This document shows, piece by piece, positions 1 through 7,945 of a stretch of 62,897 bases of DNA (the first letter of the stretch is position 1; the number at the start of each line of letters is the position of its first letter). The DNA lies in contig NZ_AUFZ01000006.1 of the NCBI RefSeq assembly GCF_000426765.1, positions 1 to 62,897 of the forward strand. The letters are read 5' to 3'. The DNA comes from Vibrio litoralis DSM 17657 (GTDB taxonomy: Bacteria; Pseudomonadota; Gammaproteobacteria; Enterobacterales; Vibrionaceae). The notes beneath the pieces were generated by a model, which was given only the letters and a program-made list of their open reading frames with translations, did not search any database and was not told the DNA's origin. The position numbers and the translations under genes were made by a program.

Positions 1-484
1 TGCCATTGGCTTTCAATTTACCAAGTAGTGTGAATAACTGCTCACGACCTTGCTCAGTCAAAATAGCTAATGTGATACCACTTAAATAAACCGCATCGAA
101 GGTTGATAATGTTTCGATCAGTTGAGCGCTTTCCGCTTGATCAAACATATATTTCGCAGCGGCATCATTACGCCAGTAGTAGAAGCTACGCTCACCAGTG
201 TCATCGGTTTCGATGTAATACATACCTGGTTGCTTGTTTTCAAAACGAAGGATGTGTTGAGTATCAATCGCTTCTTTTGACCAGCTATCAATCATGTTTT
301 GGCTAAAGCCTTCACGACCAAGTGCGGTAATGTAGCTTGTTTTAATAGCAGTATGTTTGGTTAGGCGAGCAAGATACAACGCAGTATTAAGCGTATCACC
401 ACCAAATTTTTGCGTTAGGAATTCGCCTGATTTTTGCAGTTCAATCATACATTCGCCAATGACTGCAATATTGAAATTTTTCAT
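1..484 (-). CDS. kdgK: 2-keto-3-deoxygluconate kinase, 3' part beyond window edge
   Basis: About 161 N-terminal residues of a PfkB-family sugar kinase are present; the rest lies left of the window. The start ATG is at 484-482, and the protein opens MKNFNIAVIGECMIEL, followed by a GGDTLNTALYLARL stretch typical of the PfkB substrate/lid region and of KdgK proteins. KdgK phosphorylates 2-keto-3-deoxy-D-gluconate to the 6-phosphate in the cytoplasm. It follows dgoA by 24 bp on the same strand and is the last visible gene of the leftward operon, so it fits as the kinase that feeds the aldolase. The call rests on N-terminal similarity and context. Other PfkB kinases such as fructokinase are less likely beside a KDPG-type aldolase. 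Confidence 0.85.
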   Translation of the reverse strand, partial: MKNFNIAVIGECMIELQKSGEFLTQKFGGDTLNTALYLARLTKHTAIKTSYITALGREGFSQNMIDSWSKEAIDTQHILRFENKQPGMYYIETDDTGERSFYYWRNDAAAKYMFDQAESAQLIETLSTFDAVYLSGITLAILTEQGREQLFTLLGKLKANG

Positions 485-508
485 TGCATTTCCAACATTA
501 GATATTAT

Positions 509-1141
509 TTATAGCGAGCCTTTAAATACCGACACAAAATCTTTCGCTTTCACGACGATTTCTTCATCGGACATCGTCGGTTTATAAAGTGCCGAGCCCA
601 AACCAAATCCAACCGCACCTGCTTCCATAAATGGGCGCATACTTTCTTCTGTCGCATCAATCCCACCAACTGGCATACAAGGTGTTTCTTTAGGTAAAAC
701 AGATAGTAATGCTTTAAAGCCATCCAAACCTAAGGCTGAAACTGGGAATAATTTTAAACCTGTTGCACCAGCGGCTAAGGCATTAAAGGCCTCGGTTGGC
801 GTAACAACACCGGGGAATACCGCACAACCCGCTGCTCGACCGATTTTGATAACATCAGCATTCATGTTAGGCGTAACCACTAAGTTAGCACCAGTGGCTA
901 CCACAGCTCGTGCTTGCTCTTCGGTAGTTACCGTTCCCGCTCCAACCATCATTTCATTAAGATCAAAATGCTCAACTAAGCGTCGAATACTTTCCAATGC
1001 ATCAGGGCTATTTAGCGGCACCTCAATCATAGTAAAACCTTGATCTTTCAACAGGGTCGCTATACGGATAATGTCATTAGGCTCAATGCCTCTTAAGATA
1101 GCAATTAAGGGTAAGTGCTTAGATAAATCAAACTGTTTCAT
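509..1141 (-). CDS. dgoA: 2-dehydro-3-deoxy-6-phosphogalactonate/gluconate aldolase (KDPG aldolase family)
   Basis: A 210-residue class I aldolase of the KDPG/KDPGal family. It opens with LPLIAILRGIEP, and has Glu40 in MIEVPLNSP, the VGAGTV and VTPN motifs, and the Schiff-base lysine at about residue 130 in GLKLFPVS. The length matches E. coli DgoA (about 205). It cleaves 2-keto-3-deoxy-6-phospho sugar acids to pyruvate and glyceraldehyde 3-phosphate. Enzymes of this type often accept both the gluco and galacto substrates, which suits its position between a DgoK-type and a KdgK-type kinase. Its start overlaps the end of dgoK by 14 bp, implying translational coupling. It looks closer to DgoA than to Eda. 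Confidence 0.9.
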   Translation of the reverse strand: MKQFDLSKHLPLIAILRGIEPNDIIRIATLLKDQGFTMIEVPLNSPDALESIRRLVEHFDLNEMMVGAGTVTTEEQARAVVATGANLVVTPNMNADVIKIGRAAGCAVFPGVVTPTEAFNALAAGATGLKLFPVSALGLDGFKALLSVLPKETPCMPVGGIDATEESMRPFMEAGAVGFGLGSALYKPTMSDEEIVVKAKDFVSVFKGSL

Positions 1142-2027
1142 TAATACTTTCCTTTATCATTTGAATACCTGAGATAAAACAGCTATCTCCATCGAATATT
1201 TGCGCATCAATGCCTAATAATTGACAAGCACTTAAGTAACGCTTCGCCAACGCTTCGCCCCCAACGATATAAACACGCTCTTTTACTTGTGATAACTCAT
1301 GGCCGATAAGTAGCCCAGAAACAAAGCTATGTACATGAGAAGGAGAAATATTCTTAAACAACAAGTTAGTACGCGCAGAAAATAGTTGAGTTAATAAAGA
1401 GCGATCTTGCTGAGCTTGAAAAACACCTCTTTCAAAGGTTTCTCTATCTTCTACCTGCTCAGGCAAGCCTTTGCCTAAAATCGAATGATTAACGAGTAAA
1501 GAAAAAACCTCACCTGTCATATAGGTTGAAAATTGACTGATGTGTTTTTGAGTAACAGCGACGTGCTTACTATGAGTACCCGGCAATAGCGCGCAAAAGT
1601 CACCATTCGCACATAGACCTTGCAGACCTAAAACCTGAACTTCTTCACCTCGCATTACATCGGTAATTCCCGGTGGTTCGAGATGACTCACCCCAGGAAC
1701 AATATAAGCAGGCGCTCCCCAAGGAAGTGCAAAGTGATGAATTTTTGCAGCCAGTGATAAGATAGACGCCTGAGTTTCTACATACCCTGCATCAAGCCAA
1801 CCATTAGCTGAGCCTACCATTCCAGCCATAAAGATAGGATGTTGCTGATAGTCAGTTAACCAATTAGATAAAGTATCAGCAAGAACATGAGAGAATTGGC
1901 CATCAGCCACACTCAATAAACCCATCTTGCGTTCTATTTTATCGATGCACTGGCCAGAGCCGTCTATCGCAAAAGCGCGGAAATTGGTGGTACCCCAATC
2001 AATGATTAAATATTCAATTTGACTCAT
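1128..2027 (-). CDS. dgoK: 2-dehydro-3-deoxygalactonokinase
   Basis: A 299-residue protein of the DgoK family (E. coli about 292). The N-terminal phosphate-binding loop IDWGTTNFRAF is typical of this ASKHA-fold kinase, and LLPGTHSKHV and the C-terminal IVGGEALAKRY are further family motifs. DgoK phosphorylates 2-keto-3-deoxygalactonate in the De Ley-Doudoroff pathway. The ATG at 2027 is preceded by AAGG with proper spacing. It lies between the symporter and dgoA in the leftward operon. Odd point: a second, unrelated keto-deoxy-sugar kinase (KdgK) is encoded two genes downstream. The cluster may therefore handle both C4 epimers, or DgoK may work on a different substrate here. Confidence 0.9.
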   Translation of the reverse strand: MSQIEYLIIDWGTTNFRAFAIDGSGQCIDKIERKMGLLSVADGQFSHVLADTLSNWLTDYQQHPIFMAGMVGSANGWLDAGYVETQASILSLAAKIHHFALPWGAPAYIVPGVSHLEPPGITDVMRGEEVQVLGLQGLCANGDFCALLPGTHSKHVAVTQKHISQFSTYMTGEVFSLLVNHSILGKGLPEQVEDRETFERGVFQAQQDRSLLTQLFSARTNLLFKNISPSHVHSFVSGLLIGHELSQVKERVYIVGGEALAKRYLSACQLLGIDAQIFDGDSCFISGIQMIKESINETV

Positions 2028-2052
2028 ATAATAACCTTAAAAGGCCACGACT

Positions 2053-2076
2053 ATACCTTTCGTACTTGAAGGGTAT
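2053..2076. repeat. Short palindrome with CAAGTACGAA core
   Basis: ATACC(T)TTC and GAA(G)GGTAT arms surround GTACTT. The reverse complement carries CAAGTACGAA, the same core as the palindrome at 46813-46833 beside hemE. It lies in the 69-bp gap between the symporter gene and dgoK and can fold into a hairpin in the operon mRNA. The function is unknown. Confidence 0.5.
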
Positions 2077-2096
2077 GTGTGGCCTAAATAATATCG

Positions 2097-3584
2097 TTAC
2101 GCTTGTTTAGTCGATAACTCAGCCTCAGTTGTTGAGTCTGACTCCATTGCTCGGCGCTGTTCGTTAATAATCGCCAACGCTTCTTCATCAGAAACCGTAT
2201 TTGCCGGCGTTAGTAACGTCACAATCACACCACCAATCAAAGCTGCAATCACAGAAGGAATTGATGGGTTCCCCCAGTAAGTATTCCAGTCAGCATGTAG
2301 CATTACAGAAATTGAACCTACCGATGCACACAATAATGTCGCTAACGCACCCTGCCAGTTATAACGTTTCCAAAATTTACCTAGAAGGCCAACCACACAC
2401 ATACCCGACATTACAGTCGCAATCATCTTAGTGATATAGCTGATAATGTCATTCGATGTTAAAGCAAACAGCAAAGCAATACCGATTACCGCAATCAGAG
2501 CAAAACGAGAGTACTTAACTGCTTTATCTTTTGGTGGGACTTTACCTGTCACCATGCTCCAAACATCACATAATAAAATTGATACACCAGCAATCGCATC
2601 AGAACTTGCACTCGACATGGTTGCTGATAGACCTGCAATCAAAACAATCAGTGCAATACCTGCCGGTAAAACCGTTGCTGCTAAAAATGGGAAAGCAAAG
2701 TTACTGTTTTCTAGATCAGGGTTAATCACATGTGCCGCCATACCAATAATGGCAGGAACAATTGAAAACAATAAATATAATCCACCAGATAAGATGAAGG
2801 ATTTTTTAACCGTAGACACATCTTTACCTGAGTATATACGCTGGCGATAAGATGGCGTTGCCAACACACCGACAGCAACAACAAATGCAAGGGATAACGC
2901 AGGAAGTAGACCTAACTTATCAATAGCCAAGAAACTCACAGAAGCCGAGTCCATACCATTATAAAGGTTCTCAAGACCACCAATATGATCAACGGCAAAT
3001 ACTGCCATCAAAATAAAACCAAAAAATAAAATTAATGCTTGGATGGTATCAGTCCAAACAACTGCGGTATAACCACCGATCACAACATAAATCGCAAATG
3101 CTACTGCAATTAAAATTTTTGCCGTATTTAAATCAATATCCGCAATCCAAGCTAAATATAGACCACCACCTAAAATATGTGCACCAAGCCAGCCAATAGA
3201 GGCAATAAAGATCAATACACCTACAATATTTTTAACTAACTTATTACCACCAACATAATAAGAAAGCTCTTCACTCATTGTCATAAACTTAAGTTTACGC
3301 ACTGGAGCAAAAATAAAGGCTAGTAACAAAATACCGATTGCACCACCCACTCCATATAGAGCACCAGCCCAACCATTAGAGTAACCAAAGCCTACCGCCC
3401 CCATACTAGAACCGGTGCCTACCATAGTTGCAACAGTTGTACCTAATACCAAGAATAACGGTAACCCTCGACCACCAAGTAAAAAATCCTCGCCTGTTTT
3501 TTGTTTTCGAGAGACAAACCAGCCCAACCAAATACAAAAAACCACATATAAGCCAAACCCAGAAAGAAACAGTGTACTATGCAT
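2097..3584 (-). CDS. Sodium/solute symporter (SSS/SLC5 family), putative amino-sugar-acid transporter
   Basis: A 495-residue inner-membrane protein with about 13 hydrophobic segments and the SSS hallmarks: GRGLPLFLVLGTTVATMVG near the N terminus, a GGYTAVVWTDTIQ loop and SATMSSASSDAIAGVS. This family couples inward Na+ flow to solute uptake. The gene starts at an ATG with an AAGGG Shine-Dalgarno sequence and lies between ridA and dgoK. The transported solute is not readable from sequence. The neighbours point to a sugar acid, most likely N-acetyl-D-glucosaminate or D-glucosaminate (inference). A hairpin terminator between ridA and this gene may lower its expression or mark a second promoter. 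Confidence 0.85.
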   Translation of the reverse strand: MHSTLFLSGFGLYVVFCIWLGWFVSRKQKTGEDFLLGGRGLPLFLVLGTTVATMVGTGSSMGAVGFGYSNGWAGALYGVGGAIGILLLAFIFAPVRKLKFMTMSEELSYYVGGNKLVKNIVGVLIFIASIGWLGAHILGGGLYLAWIADIDLNTAKILIAVAFAIYVVIGGYTAVVWTDTIQALILFFGFILMAVFAVDHIGGLENLYNGMDSASVSFLAIDKLGLLPALSLAFVVAVGVLATPSYRQRIYSGKDVSTVKKSFILSGGLYLLFSIVPAIIGMAAHVINPDLENSNFAFPFLAATVLPAGIALIVLIAGLSATMSSASSDAIAGVSILLCDVWSMVTGKVPPKDKAVKYSRFALIAVIGIALLFALTSNDIISYITKMIATVMSGMCVVGLLGKFWKRYNWQGALATLLCASVGSISVMLHADWNTYWGNPSIPSVIAALIGGVIVTLLTPANTVSDEEALAIINEQRRAMESDSTTEAELSTKQA

Positions 3585-3667
3585 ATTAATCCCTTATTTT
3601 ATATTTCACGCTAATGACGTTATATTTTTATTTTATTTAGATAAAAACTTCAGGGTGCAGAAAACTA

Positions 3668-3688
3668 AAGGCTCACAGCATGAGCCTT
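3668..3688 (-). terminator. Hairpin terminator/attenuator between ridA and the symporter gene
   Basis: AAGGCTCA and TGAGCCTT form a perfect 8-bp stem with a 5-nt loop. On the minus strand it is followed by TTTAGTTTTC, a moderate U tract. It would stop or attenuate transcripts coming from ridA before the symporter-dgoK-dgoA-kdgK genes. The 196-bp gap also leaves room for an internal promoter. Confidence 0.6.
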
Positions 3689-3780
3689 GATTTTATTATT
3701 TAAATTTAATAATTGAGAATTATAAAGCCATTCATCTAAATTGAACCTTTGGCGTTATAAAACCATTTGGATTTATAAAA

Positions 3781-4167
3781 TTATTGTGCTTTATAACAAG
3801 TCAAATCAACTTCAACTTTCACATCAACGACAAGATCAGCCACCATACAAATACGTGCAGGTGGGTGTTCAGCAAAATATTCTTTAAATACTTTGTTAAA
3901 AGATTGGAAATAACGAGAGTCTGTTAATACCACTTTCATATGAACAATATCTTCTTTGTTATAACCTGCATTATGCATAATGGCTAAACAGTTATCGATC
4001 GCCAGTTTAGATTGCTCAATAATGCCACCTTCAACCACTTCGCCATCTGTCATTGGCGTTTGACCTGAAACATATAACCAACCACCGGCTTCTACTGCGT
4101 TAGAGAATGGTAAGTGTTGACCACCTGTTCCTGATTTACCTTCTGGGCCAAAACGTTTAATTGACAT
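3781..4167 (-). CDS. RidA family enamine/imine deaminase
   Basis: A 128-residue RidA/YjgF/YER057c-family protein. It shows the family pattern of GGWLYVSGQTPMTDG near residue 30 and a conserved arginine in PARICMVADL near residue 104, which in RidA binds the substrate carboxylate. RidA proteins hydrolyse reactive 2-aminoacrylate-type enamines/imines released by PLP enzymes. It is 22 bp downstream of the deacylase gene and near a PLP dehydratase gene, so it probably helps complete deamination of the keto-deoxy acid precursor. Start ATG has AAGG 7-8 nt upstream. The name ridA is usually kept for the housekeeping copy, so no symbol is given. Confidence 0.88.
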   Translation of the reverse strand: MSIKRFGPEGKSGTGGQHLPFSNAVEAGGWLYVSGQTPMTDGEVVEGGIIEQSKLAIDNCLAIMHNAGYNKEDIVHMKVVLTDSRYFQSFNKVFKEYFAEHPPARICMVADLVVDVKVEVDLTCYKAQ

Positions 4168-4189
4168 AACAATTACCTTTATTGTGTTT

Positions 4190-5626
4190 TTAAAATGAAG
4201 CGCGACGAATAAATTGTCCGTAACGCTGTGATTGAATATTTTTGTTTTGGTAAGCTAAGCCACCATTAACAAAAACACTATAAATACCTTCTGCTTTTCT
4301 TTTAGGTTCAGAAAAAGTTGCCACATCTTTAATTGTATTAGCATCAAATAAAACAATATCAGCAAATGCTCCAGCTTTAATGACACCTCGATTTAATAAA
4401 TTAAAGCGTTGTGCAGATTTACCCGTCATTTTATGAACCGCTTCTTCTAAAGAAAATAATTGCTTTTCTCTTGAGTAAAAACCTAATACTCGAGGGAAAG
4501 CGCCCCATAAACGAGGGTGTGGATGTGGATCATTAGGTAAACCATCTGAACCAATAACCGAATGTTTAGATTGTAGAACTCGCTCAACGTCTTCAGCGCA
4601 CATATTGTGATAAACCGCACCAGCTGGCTGTAGCATTTTTGCTGCTTCTAACAATGTTTGGTTCGTTTCATCCGCGATTTGCTGCAATGTTTTTTGAGCA
4701 TGTTCTGGACAAGATTCTGACCAAGTAATAAAAATCTCAAACTCATCGGTAACTTGCTTTAAATCTAAAGTCGAAGAGCTCGCTGAATAAGGGTAGCAAT
4801 CACAACCTACGGTTTGCTCTTTCGATGTCTCATCAAGCAATTGCAATGTTTCGGTTGTTCTACCCCAGTTACCCGCGCCTGCACATTTTAAATGTGAAAT
4901 CACAACGGGAACTTTATTAATACGCCCCACTTTAAAAGCCTCTTCCATTGCATCAAGAATGGGTTCAAACTCCGAGCGCATGTGAGTAGTATAAATCGCG
5001 CTCTGGTTTGTTAATTCAGCAGCCAGTTGCTCCACCTCATCCGAAGAAGAATCAAATGCGGAAGCGTAAGCGAGTCCAGTACTTAAACCCAATGCCCCTT
5101 CTTTTAAAGCTTGCTTAAGTTGTTCGCGCATTCCTGCAATTTCTTGTGGGTTAGCCGGACGATATAAATCATCCATCACATTATTGCGTAATGTTGTGTG
5201 ACCAACTAACGCAGCCACATTTACCGCAGGCTGTGCTTGTTCAACCGCTTGAGCATAATCTTGAAAAGTTGGGTATTTAAAATCTTCTTTATTCCCCAAT
5301 AAATTCATTGGATCTGGCGGCACATCTTGCAACATTGCAGGGGTGGCACTAATGCCACAATTGCCAACAATAACCGTGGTAATACCTTGAGTGATTTTAG
5401 GCTCACACTCAGGCTCACGAATCACATTGGTATCATCATGGGTATGCACATCAATAAAACCTGGTGCTGCTGTTAAACCGTCCCCATCAATGAGTACCGC
5501 GTTTTCATTTTGTAAATCTTGACCAACTCGCGTAATTTTATCTTCAACAATTTCAATATCAGAAAAAAACCTTGGCTTTGAAGTGCCATCTACAATCGAT
5601 ACATTCTTGATTAAATACGTCGTCAT
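4190..5626 (-). CDS. N-acyl-D-amino acid deacylase (D-aminoacylase family), putative N-acetyl-D-glucosaminate deacetylase
   Basis: A 478-residue amidohydrolase of the D-aminoacylase family. All expected metal ligands are visible: the HTH pair at His61/His63, Cys90 in GNCGIS, His215 in TTHMRSE, His245 in ISHLK and Asp361 in GSDGLPND. The family removes acyl groups from N-acyl-D-amino acids. With a keto-deoxy acid kinase/aldolase set and a D-amino-acid dehydratase around it, the likely substrate is an N-acetylated D-amino sugar acid such as N-acetyl-D-glucosaminate, giving D-glucosaminate plus acetate (inference). It is cytoplasmic, with no signal peptide. It lies 17 bp after rpiR and 22 bp before ridA, the core of the operon. 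Confidence 0.85.
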   Translation of the reverse strand: MTTYLIKNVSIVDGTSKPRFFSDIEIVEDKITRVGQDLQNENAVLIDGDGLTAAPGFIDVHTHDDTNVIREPECEPKITQGITTVIVGNCGISATPAMLQDVPPDPMNLLGNKEDFKYPTFQDYAQAVEQAQPAVNVAALVGHTTLRNNVMDDLYRPANPQEIAGMREQLKQALKEGALGLSTGLAYASAFDSSSDEVEQLAAELTNQSAIYTTHMRSEFEPILDAMEEAFKVGRINKVPVVISHLKCAGAGNWGRTTETLQLLDETSKEQTVGCDCYPYSASSSTLDLKQVTDEFEIFITWSESCPEHAQKTLQQIADETNQTLLEAAKMLQPAGAVYHNMCAEDVERVLQSKHSVIGSDGLPNDPHPHPRLWGAFPRVLGFYSREKQLFSLEEAVHKMTGKSAQRFNLLNRGVIKAGAFADIVLFDANTIKDVATFSEPKRKAEGIYSVFVNGGLAYQNKNIQSQRYGQFIRRASF

Positions 5627-5643
5627 TCCAATGCTCTTATTTT

Positions 5644-6507
5644 CTAATCACCTAGAGGTTGGCGATCCCCTCCTGATCGATGATTATCAAGGTTAATTTT
5701 GATTCGCCTTAACTTGTCTCTTGATCTTTGCTTTTGAATCACAGCTAACCGATAAGCTAAAATATCGATTGCTACCATCATGGCGTAACGAGAAGCTGAT
5801 GGCTTATAAATGTAATCCGTTTCTTCAGTTAAAATGGGTAACGTAAAATCACTAATCTCAGCTAATTCCGAATCAGGGTTGGTAATCGCTATCACCTTTG
5901 CTCCGTACTGTTTCGCAATACTCGCCGCTTCTGTGACCTCTCGAGTAAACCCTGATACCGACATCACAACAAATACATCATTCTTATCTATGGTCGATGC
6001 TACCATTCGGCTTAACAGGCCATCGTTATAAGCAGTAACCACAAAACCCAAACGAAATAATCGATATTGCAGCTCTTGTGCCATGATGGTTGAGCCACCG
6101 CCCATCCCCACACTTAACACTTGCCTTGAGCCAATGATCACGTCACAAACTTGATTTAACACGTCATCCGAAATGGCGTTGCGATTTTTATGAATCATGT
6201 TTTTGGCACTTTCATAAATACCGCCGATGCCACTTTCATCCGGCTTTTCATAAATAAAGCGCTGACCAATCGCTAATGATTTTGCGATCTTCATCTTCAG
6301 CTCACGAATATTTCGACAGCCTAGTGTTTTACTAAATCGAGTCACCGATGCTTCACTGACTTCCGCTTGAGCCGCTAACTCAGTAATGCTCGCACTAGAA
6401 GCAAACTCCAAGTCATCAATAATGGCATTAGCGACTTTTTTCTCCGTACCTTTTAATTCCGGATAAACTTCATTTATGCGCGAAACAATATCTATTTCAA
6501 TATTCAT
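5644..6507 (-). CDS. MurR/RpiR family transcriptional regulator of the cluster
   Basis: A 287-residue RpiR-type regulator. An N-terminal helix-turn-helix (roughly residues 30-70, AEVSEASVTRFSKTLGC) is followed by a SIS sugar-phosphate-binding domain (roughly 115-250; GMGGGSTIMAQELQ, VMSVSGFTREV). The ATG at 6507 has GGAA 6-7 nt upstream and is preferred over the in-frame TTG at 6519. The SIS domain suggests that a phosphorylated intermediate, such as KDPG or a related sugar-acid phosphate, is the effector. It heads the leftward operon and faces the dehydratase gene across a short divergent promoter region, so it probably controls both directions. Whether it represses or activates cannot be read. 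Confidence 0.88.
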   Translation of the reverse strand: MNIEIDIVSRINEVYPELKGTEKKVANAIIDDLEFASSASITELAAQAEVSEASVTRFSKTLGCRNIRELKMKIAKSLAIGQRFIYEKPDESGIGGIYESAKNMIHKNRNAISDDVLNQVCDVIIGSRQVLSVGMGGGSTIMAQELQYRLFRLGFVVTAYNDGLLSRMVASTIDKNDVFVVMSVSGFTREVTEAASIAKQYGAKVIAITNPDSELAEISDFTLPILTEETDYIYKPSASRYAMMVAIDILAYRLAVIQKQRSRDKLRRIKINLDNHRSGGDRQPLGD

Positions 6508-6524
6508 ATTGAGTTCCAAATTAT

Positions 6525-6538
6525 GGGATCAGTATCCC
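6525..6538. promoter_or_regulatory. GGGAT-N4-ATCCC palindrome, candidate RpiR operator
   Basis: A perfect inverted repeat GGGATCAGTATCCC lies just upstream of the rpiR start in the AT-rich divergent region 6508-6682. It is the only strong GC palindrome there, so it is a reasonable operator candidate for the cluster regulator. A second weaker dyad, TGAGATAAAACTCA, lies about 25 bp further on. Inference only. Confidence 0.4.
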
Positions 6539-6682
6539 TTTACTTTAAGTCTAATTCTGTGAGATAAAACTCATTAACCAAAACAATTTATGAAAATTTC
6601 AAACAGAAAAAATGAAAAAACAAAAATTAAAACCTTAAATACAACAGCTTAACCAATGATTGGAATAATAGGAAATAAAATA

Positions 6683-7945
6683 ATGCACCACAAAAATGAA
6701 AATAACAATCATAGTGAATTTTTAAAAACCCAAAAAGGTATGCCTGCGATCCAACAAAACAGTGGTCGCTATAACTTGATAAATGAAGAAGTTAGCTTAC
6801 CTTGTGCAACCTTAAAAATGAGTGCAGTCGACAATAACATTGCCTGGATGAAACACTTCGCGGAGCTCTTTAATGTTCAGCTAGCACCTCATGGTAAAAC
6901 CAGCTTAACGCCAGCCATCATCAGCAAGCAACTCGCTGCGGGAGCATGGGGGATGACCATGGCAACCATTCAACAAGCCTTTGTTGCCTATCAATGCGGT
7001 GCGAGAAATGTCATTTTAGCCAATCAATTAATCGGTAAATCAAATTTTGAACTGGCTCATCAACTCATCACACAAAGCGACTGCCAACTTTATGTCTGTG
7101 TTGATTCATTAAAAAATGCTCAAGCGCTGGCCGATTTTTTTGCAGATAAGAAAAGCACTCTTAATGTATTGATTGAATTTGGAGTCGAAGGCGGCCGTTG
7201 CGGAGTCCGAACAGCAGAACAAGCAATGGAACTAGCCACCTTCATCAAAAACACTGATTCCCTTTCTCTACAAGGCATCGAATTCTACGAAGGTGTGATT
7301 CATGGAGAAAATGAAGAACAAGAAATCCGGGACTTTTTACTCGAAGTGTCACAATTAGCCCTAGAGTTCCAGCAACAAACACTATTTGATACTAAGCAGC
7401 CAATTTTAACTGGCGCAGGCTCTGCATTTTACGATCTAGTCACTGAGATGATGGCCTGTATCCCGGATTCATTTACTAAAATCATTCGCCCTGGTTGCTA
7501 CATATCTCATGACCGTGGTATCTATCAAACTGCCCAAAATCTGGTCCGTGAACGCTTACGTCGCTCTGAAGTCTTAACCGAAGCCCTACCTGGCGATCTG
7601 GTGTCGGCTATTGAAGTATGGGCTTATGTACAATCTCGCCCAGAACCAAATAAAGTCATCGTCAATGTAGGTAAACGCGATGTGGCATTTGATGCTGATT
7701 TGCCAATGCTTGAACGAGCTTATCGCGACGGCCAATTGCTCTCCGTTGATACCTCGAACATCACAACAACGGCGGTAATGGATCAGCATATGTTCATGCA
7801 AGTGGACACTGATTGCCCATTAGAAGTGGGGGATGTACTGGTGCTCTCTACTTCCCACCCATGTATTACCTTTGATAAATGGCGCTACATTGGCCTCACT
7901 GACGACCAAGATCAGATAACAGAATGGGTTAAGACAGAGTTCTAA
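6683..7945 (+). CDS. PLP- and metal-dependent D-amino acid dehydratase (D-threonine aldolase/D-serine dehydratase fold), putative D-glucosaminate dehydratase
   Basis: A 420-residue protein with an alanine-racemase-like N-terminal PLP barrel and the D-serine-dehydratase-like C-terminal domain. The PLP lysine is Lys72 in LAPHGKTSL. The C-terminal zinc motif of this family is present as His392-Pro-Cys394, and another conserved His369 lies in MDQHMF. From memory, Pseudomonas D-glucosaminate dehydratase belongs to this fold and makes 2-keto-3-deoxygluconate plus ammonia, exactly the substrate of the neighbouring kinase. Start 6683 is chosen because AGGAA lies 9 nt upstream; an in-frame ATG at 6656 has no ribosome-binding site. 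It is transcribed away from rpiR. Alternatives are D-threonine aldolase or D-serine ammonia-lyase. Confidence 0.8.
   Translation: MHHKNENNNHSEFLKTQKGMPAIQQNSGRYNLINEEVSLPCATLKMSAVDNNIAWMKHFAELFNVQLAPHGKTSLTPAIISKQLAAGAWGMTMATIQQAFVAYQCGARNVILANQLIGKSNFELAHQLITQSDCQLYVCVDSLKNAQALADFFADKKSTLNVLIEFGVEGGRCGVRTAEQAMELATFIKNTDSLSLQGIEFYEGVIHGENEEQEIRDFLLEVSQLALEFQQQTLFDTKQPILTGAGSAFYDLVTEMMACIPDSFTKIIRPGCYISHDRGIYQTAQNLVRERLRRSEVLTEALPGDLVSAIEVWAYVQSRPEPNKVIVNVGKRDVAFDADLPMLERAYRDGQLLSVDTSNITTTAVMDQHMFMQVDTDCPLEVGDVLVLSTSHPCITFDKWRYIGLTDDQDQITEWVKTEF

Follow-up and report, generated by a model that had tools for sequence, protein, structure and literature searches.

A candidate two-branch form of the ong cluster for oxidized amino sugars in Vibrio litoralis

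The stretch of DNA analyzed here (the window) is one entire contig, C15 of the Vibrio litoralis DSM 17657 assembly G000, 62,897 bases in length, and it begins with an ong cluster of a known kind, in an uncommon form that also includes a galacto-type kinase and aldolase (DgoK and DgoA). As judged from the sequence, the core of the cluster, consisting of OngC, OngR, OngB, OngD and OngIT, almost certainly corresponds to the published ong cluster for N-acetyl-D-glucosaminate (GlcNAc1A). For the cluster as a whole, the explanation that we place first, if tentatively, is a variant in which a pair of epimeric sugar acids would share one OngB and one OngC, the gluco product going to KdgK and the galacto product to DgoK-DgoA. 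Once the ong assignment is granted, the galacto branch has nearly an even chance of being real.

In this scheme, OngIT would import both N-acetyl-D-glucosaminate and N-acetyl-D-galactosaminate, OngB would strip the acetate from both acids, and OngC would remove ammonia to yield 2-keto-3-deoxygluconate (KDG) or 2-keto-3-deoxygalactonate (KDGal), with OngD, a RidA protein, being needed as in the published pathway. KDG would then be converted by KdgK and an Eda aldolase, and KDGal by DgoK and DgoA, in both cases to pyruvate and glyceraldehyde 3-phosphate, and OngR would act as a repressor. OngC acts at C2-C3, which leaves OngB, the kinases and the aldolases as the only enzymes that have to distinguish the C4 configuration. 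Two kinases and two aldolases that differ in stereochemistry accompany a single OngB and a single OngC, and the simplest assumption is that there are two products differing at C4.

The presence of an ong pathway is read as a sign that chitin is used oxidatively. We consider it possible, with less conviction than for the window cluster, that bacteria possess a route for N-acetyl-D-galactosaminate, i.e., oxidized N-acetyl-D-galactosamine (GalNAc), which would be two-branched in some Vibrio and galacto-only in Enterobacteriaceae including Klebsiella, where it is counted as chitin oxidation. If this is true, some of the counted chitin oxidation, above all that of the enterobacterial clusters, is a different process, and oxidized GalNAc is being consumed from a pool so far unrecorded.

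Relation to the published ong cluster

The ong cluster was described in Pseudoalteromonas prydzensis ACAM 620 (Jiang et al. 2022, PMC9537276). According to the part of that paper available to us, OngIT imports GlcNAc1A, OngB deacetylates it, OngC deaminates the product to KDG and KdgK phosphorylates KDG; OngD (RidA) is required, OngR is a repressor, and OngA, a glycoside hydrolase of family 20 (GH20), trims oxidized oligomers, with an ongA mutant still growing on GlcNAc1A. Clusters were defined there by at least four co-occurring homologs of the ACAM 620 genes with >30% identity, and a cluster together with a lytic polysaccharide monooxygenase (LPMO) was reported for 298 of 2,455 marine strains, 221 of them Vibrio. 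The first-pass annotation of the window had proposed a Vibrio version of a chitin-oxidation cluster with its own transporter and regulator. It is indeed such a version, but those 221 strains take away its novelty, and its SSS (sodium:solute symporter) transporter and RpiR regulator are of the published kinds. The substrate class and the route that had been proposed are well supported by the sequence, since the OngB scores and residues described below point the same way and the genes present are the same as those of the published core.

Six loci in the published order (L172-L177, with KdgK in four) served for comparison: OngC, OngR, OngB and OngIT of the window are 39-61% identical to their counterparts, and OngD is 73-81% identical to those in the loci that list it. 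These loci, and not the ACAM 620 proteins, were the reference for all cluster proteins except OngB, which was also compared with the P. prydzensis protein (PpOngB) itself. More broadly among relatives, the window OngC and symporter are 39-62% and 53-82% identical, respectively, to counterparts adjacent to OngB, and the RidA protein is 73-91% identical to RidA proteins in ong clusters.

Comparing gene orders, as the first-pass annotation had advised, shows that the kinds OngC, OngR, OngB, OngD, OngIT and KdgK are common to the ACAM 620 cluster, its Vibrio form and the window. Unlike in the ACAM 620 cluster, however, ongC in the window diverges from ongR, DgoK and DgoA are inserted between OngIT and KdgK, and OngA is missing. 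Four relatives, all from a single family (L174-L177), show the published arrangement, C R B D IT KdgK OngA. The arrangement seen most often in Vibrio is R C / B D IT KdgK Eda OngA, whereas the window reads C / R B D IT DgoK DgoA KdgK. The first-pass annotation had named DgoK and DgoA without giving them a role of their own, and it is this pair that sets the window cluster apart. No ongA was found within the 8.5 kb present on one side of the cluster, and the one GH20 of the genome is 30-33% identical to ong-linked GH20 proteins of Vibrio relatives over approximately 272 residues. The genome also encodes one LPMO_10 protein over the cut-off.

OngB as a deacetylase of sugar acids

The window OngB scores 539 bits against PpOngB (9kb1), 423 against AfDam, 337 against BbDam and 655 against the Klebsiella pneumoniae protein 9g5m. 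The available part of the PpOngB structure paper (PMC12017989) names Cys97, His222, His252, Asp368, His68 and His70 as zinc or catalytic residues, and Glu226, Ser290, Ser291, Ser292, Gln298, Ala193, Ala256 and Gly348 among the substrate residues. All six zinc or catalytic residues are kept in the window OngB (His61, His63, Cys90, His215, His245 and Asp361), as the first-pass annotation had claimed for the metal ligands, and so are 19 of the 20 checkable active-site residues, the printed Cys79, a proline in the solved sequence too, being left uncounted. The sole change is Gly348 to Asn341. Ser285 and Gln291 of the window protein are the PpOngB residues Ser292 and Gln298, the GlcNAc1A pair that separates this enzyme from the D-aminoacylases. 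D-aminoacylases of the AfDam/BbDam type are recognized by Thr at the Ser292 site together with Leu or Arg at the Gln298 site. Site 348 (341 in the window) is among four tail-cavity positions named in PMC12017989.

These residues bear on a reading of the locus as a D-amino-acid cluster, in which an N-acyl-D-amino-acid deacylase would be paired with a deaminase of D-serine/D-threonine type. The public names of the genes, D-aminoacylase and amino acid deaminase, agree with it, as does the title of the closest solved relative of OngB, 9g5m, which is N-acyl-D-amino-acid deacylase; a literature search found no publication for this PDB entry. (An AlphaFold model reached a predicted local distance difference test score, pLDDT, of 43 with four sequences and 85 with 37, and the latter was used for titles of solved relatives only.) However, the window OngB has the GlcNAc1A pair, while five aligned loci of the D-aminoacylase type, which lack ong neighbors, have Thr with Phe or Arg at the Ser285 and Gln291 sites and Met at site 341, and amino acid use does not involve KdgK, DgoK or DgoA. 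We therefore rejected the D-aminoacylase reading on the residues of OngB, and a D-amino-acid cluster is very improbable.

DgoK and DgoA beside OngB

KDPG and KDPGal aldolases (the 6-phosphates of KDG and KDGal being their substrates) differ at V154/T161 and in strand 1, as stated in the part of PMC4915726 available to us. The window DgoA has KDPGal-type residues at both stereocontrol sites (V154; A11-I12), and its best solved relative is the Escherichia coli KDPGal aldolase 2v81 (148 bits). Six other ong-linked DgoA that were aligned are also of the KDPGal type at both sites, and 14 of 14 aligned Eda are of the KDPG type. The V154 site is occupied by Thr in 6 of 12 free-standing Vibrio DgoA and hence varies within the family. 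DgoK, which scores 137 bits against the 2-oxo-3-deoxygalactonate kinase 3r1x, is the sole PF05035 match in the whole genome.

Our sample comprised 196 Vibrio genomes, 80 with OngB and 34 with DgoK. In three of the 80, namely the window genome, G022 and G088, DgoK and OngB are no more than 4 kb apart. G022 shows the arrangement C / R B D IT KdgK Eda DgoK DgoA, followed by a second RpiR gene and genes for a tripartite ATP-independent periplasmic (TRAP) transporter. Here, Eda (293 bits, cut-off 241) and DgoA (246 bits, cut-off 207) stand side by side with one OngB and one OngC, and KdgK scores 338 bits, below the cut-off of 400. The G088 genes run R C / B D TRAP DgoK DgoA, and neither KdgK nor Eda is present in the vicinity. 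The TRAP transporter was considered as a galacto importer and dropped, because close TRAP homologs also adjoin Cys-type KdgK-Eda clusters (L196, L205). A further Vibrio locus, L210 (G135), has an Asn-type OngB and the TRAP genes of G088, and no kinase or aldolase adjacent.

The family taken here as Enterobacteriaceae, because it holds Klebsiella-like clusters, yielded 45 matches, and the neighborhoods of 35 of these were examined. DgoK-DgoA lie beside OngB in 13 of its 25 loci with Asn at site 341. The K. pneumoniae cluster in CP125156, with a deacylase of the 9g5m type, shares OngC, OngB, OngD, OngIT, DgoK, DgoA, an RpiR protein and Asn at site 341 with the window; it differs in having no adjacent KdgK, in ongR lying at the far end and in OngB being in two pieces. 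Its pair is annotated as 2-dehydro-3-deoxygalactonokinase and 2-dehydro-3-deoxy-6-phosphogalactonate aldolase.

In a DgoK tree, the enterobacterial ong DgoK form one group (support 98), that of G088 groups with free-standing Vibrio DgoK (support 94), and the window and G022 DgoK, both on long branches, take up another position in the same larger Vibrio group (support 95). The tree suggests, tentatively in view of these long branches, that DgoK was recruited more than once.

Site 341 of OngB and the neighboring genes

Site 341, the one altered position among those checked, was compared across 137 OngB-like proteins aligned together with their neighborhoods, and seven second copies of already counted genomes were excluded from the tally. 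Four Vibrio relatives (L070, L071, L211, L212), whose OngB is disrupted or incomplete through decay or assembly faults, were left out of the alignment. Asn stands at the site in 31 loci, 16 with DgoA, one with KdgK alone and 14 with neither near. Gln is found in six loci, all with DgoA, the adjacent kinase being a PF05035 protein in the one checked. Cys (76 loci) and Gly (12 loci) never occur with DgoA; 23 of the Cys loci have short flanks that could hide a distant DgoA, and 21 of these are in genomes without DgoK near OngB.

The site is thus Asn or Gln in 22 of 22 DgoA-bearing clusters. With one Pseudomonas locus (L018) set aside beforehand, column 341 is the only one of 477 that separates the 22 DgoA-bearing from 54 KdgK- or OngA-bearing clusters; separating columns in the other proteins number one in OngC, three in OngIT and none in OngD or OngR. 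None of the 22 DgoA-bearing clusters contains OngA, as compared to 48 of the 65 Cys/Gly-type clusters whose flanks are long; the 23 short-flank Cys loci are outside this count.

The six Gln loci (L267-L270, L272, L273) represent a further enterobacterial form with DgoA, OngB, OngD, OngIT and OngC on one strand, and their OngB also has Ser at Ala186 and Gly at Ser283. The substrate of this form may differ again.

Weighing the galacto branch

A number of observations weigh against a galacto branch. Among 120 database relatives, 21 have Asn and 99 have Cys at site 341, and this split led to a blind test of the Asn marker on a sister genus. Asn341 had looked clean as a strict marker of DgoK-DgoA and failed here, as the Asn locus of G848 (L281) carries KdgK-Eda; the other two sister-genus loci have Cys and no kinase in the 5.8 kb read. 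L018, too, has Asn at the site together with KdgK. Hence, Asn alone is no galacto marker, and it may be permissive or ancestral. A tree of 75 rows built without column 341 places G088 among Cys-type Vibrio (supports 82 and 94), but in approximately unbiased (AU) tests of independent origins neither alternative was rejected (p 0.38 and 0.46), the former value applying to a single Asn clade in Vibrio. Only two to three independent pairs are available, and a sign test was not significant. No kinase adjoins OngB in 12 of the 25 Asn-type enterobacterial loci, nor in Vibrio sinensis. LPMO action on chitin yields the gluco acid only. A literature search, judged by title, found no description of an N-acetylgalactosaminate pathway. 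Finally, DgoK and DgoA may simply act on gluco products. N-Acetyl-D-galactosaminate is absent from the OngB and OngC assay panels in the available parts of the two papers (PMC9537276, PMC12017989), the OngC panel consisting of D-glucosaminate (GlcN1A), three hexosamines and D-amino acids (PMC9537276).

Action of DgoK and DgoA on gluco products amounts to an explanation of its own, in which the cluster would serve N-acetyl-D-glucosaminate only, with DgoK and DgoA as a replacement or spare for the enzymes of KDG and its phosphate. This comes close behind the two-epimer explanation, and we regard it as a serious possibility. The remainder of the cluster is plain ong, DgoK-DgoA occupy the place of KdgK-Eda in G088 and in the enterobacterial clusters, and Asn341 accompanies KdgK-Eda or KdgK in the G848 and L018 loci just described. 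Extra kdgA genes are mentioned for Vibrio, Klebsiella and Serratia clusters in the available part of PMC9537276. The gluco-only explanation accounts less well for the KDPGal-type residues at both stereocontrol sites of DgoA, for the absence of OngA from all DgoA-bearing clusters, and for the window and G022 retaining KdgK beside DgoK, which would be needless for a replacement. The two-epimer explanation is the one we prefer on these points.

DgoK and DgoA could also be functionally unrelated neighbors that serve, for example, KDGal from another sugar acid. The pair does occur away from OngB in other Vibrio, in some cases, as seen by eye, near genes of the enolase superfamily or TRAP genes, and V. 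sinensis, whose ong genes read C / R B D IT, carries it elsewhere in the genome. However, adjacency to OngB recurs in Vibrio and Enterobacteriaceae on the same strand and with close spacing. Furthermore, of the three MR_MLE proteins of the window genome, which are ManD-like, DgcA and MenC, none exceeds the NF010624 cut-off for galactonate dehydratase (other dehydratase families, which could make KDGal, were not searched), a result that counts against unrelated neighbors and in favor of the two-epimer explanation. Altogether, we consider an unrelated pair improbable.

The two-epimer explanation would place the window next to the lower branch of the DeLey-Doudoroff pathway for D-galactonate use, with which it shares the DgoK and DgoA families and the KDPGal-type residues. 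In contrast to the D-galactonate operon, the window cluster is without the galactonate dehydratase DgoD, and KDGal would instead derive from an amino sugar acid by way of OngB and OngC.

The contig end and the kdgK-eda repeat

The first-pass annotation had called the route complete. In the window it is not, because kdgK runs off the contig end after 161 of approximately 309 residues. The rest of the gene falls in a repeat shared with another contig. In the direction of kdgK, C15 and C8 show two differences over their last 475 nucleotides and diverge at the start of the gene. C7 and C13 carry eda at their ends, which show 2 differences in 352 positions and diverge close to the 3′ end of eda. 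C8 encodes two proteins with alginate-lyase and heparinase domains as well as a cupin, and C13 encodes two PF08787 alginate lyases. The plain reading is that a kdgK-eda pair is present twice in the genome, here and in an alginate-lyase cluster, and is collapsed in the assembly; we infer that C15 joins C7. The near-identical stretch runs from about the start of kdgK to near the end of eda (window 2-484; L019 12659-13142; 3′ ends in L020 and L021), and the duplication likely arose by recent copying or gene conversion. A third, diverged kdgK-eda pair lies on C3.

Gene calls and related stretches

The eight genes lie in the first 7.9 kb of the window (Table 1), and NCBIfam and Pfam bear out both the positions and the families that the first-pass annotation had assigned to them.

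Table 1. Features of the ong-type cluster, with positions in the window
Feature	Position	Strand	Assignment and support
kdgK	2-484	-	PfkB-family 2-keto-3-deoxygluconate kinase, partial gene; NF052444, 247 bits (full-length cut-off 400)
dgoA	509-1141	-	KDPGal aldolase type; PRK09140, 244 bits (cut-off 207)
dgoK	1128-2027	-	2-keto-3-deoxygalactonate kinase family; PF05035, 273 bits
ongIT	2097-3584	-	SSS symporter, predicted sugar-acid importer; PF00474
ongD	3781-4167	-	RidA family; PF01042
ongB	4190-5626	-	D-aminoacylase-type amidohydrolase, predicted deacetylase of N-acetyl aldonic amino sugars
ongR	5644-6519	-	RpiR/SIS regulator; PF01418 and PF01380; synteny with OngR of relatives
15-base box	6556-6570		In the gap between ongC and ongR
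ongC	6656-7945	+	Pyridoxal phosphate (PLP) enzyme, predicted ammonia-lyase on an amino sugar acid; PF14031 and PF01168

The dgoA and dgoK genes overlap by 14 bases. For ongR, the start is a TTG at 6519, with an in-frame ATG at 6507. OngC scores 319 bits against the D-serine deaminase 3gwq, and the HPC motif noted in the first pass is present. The PLP lysine, given there as Lys72, is present in an HGK motif; it is residue 81 of the longest open reading frame and becomes residue 72 only if the alternative start Met10, at 6683, is used.

No long palindrome was found in the gap between ongC and ongR. The 15-base box there is common to three Vibrio of the clade, namely V. sinensis, G022 and the window strain. 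The box is similar to half of a site for the cyclic AMP receptor protein (CRP), and a regulatory role for it is only a guess.

Relatives of the enterobacterial ong-type stretch, at 60-80% identity, are present in 185 of 5,426 complete E. coli genomes. In E. coli EC416, such a stretch, without DgoK-DgoA, lies between btsT and tsr (L280 4179-9885).

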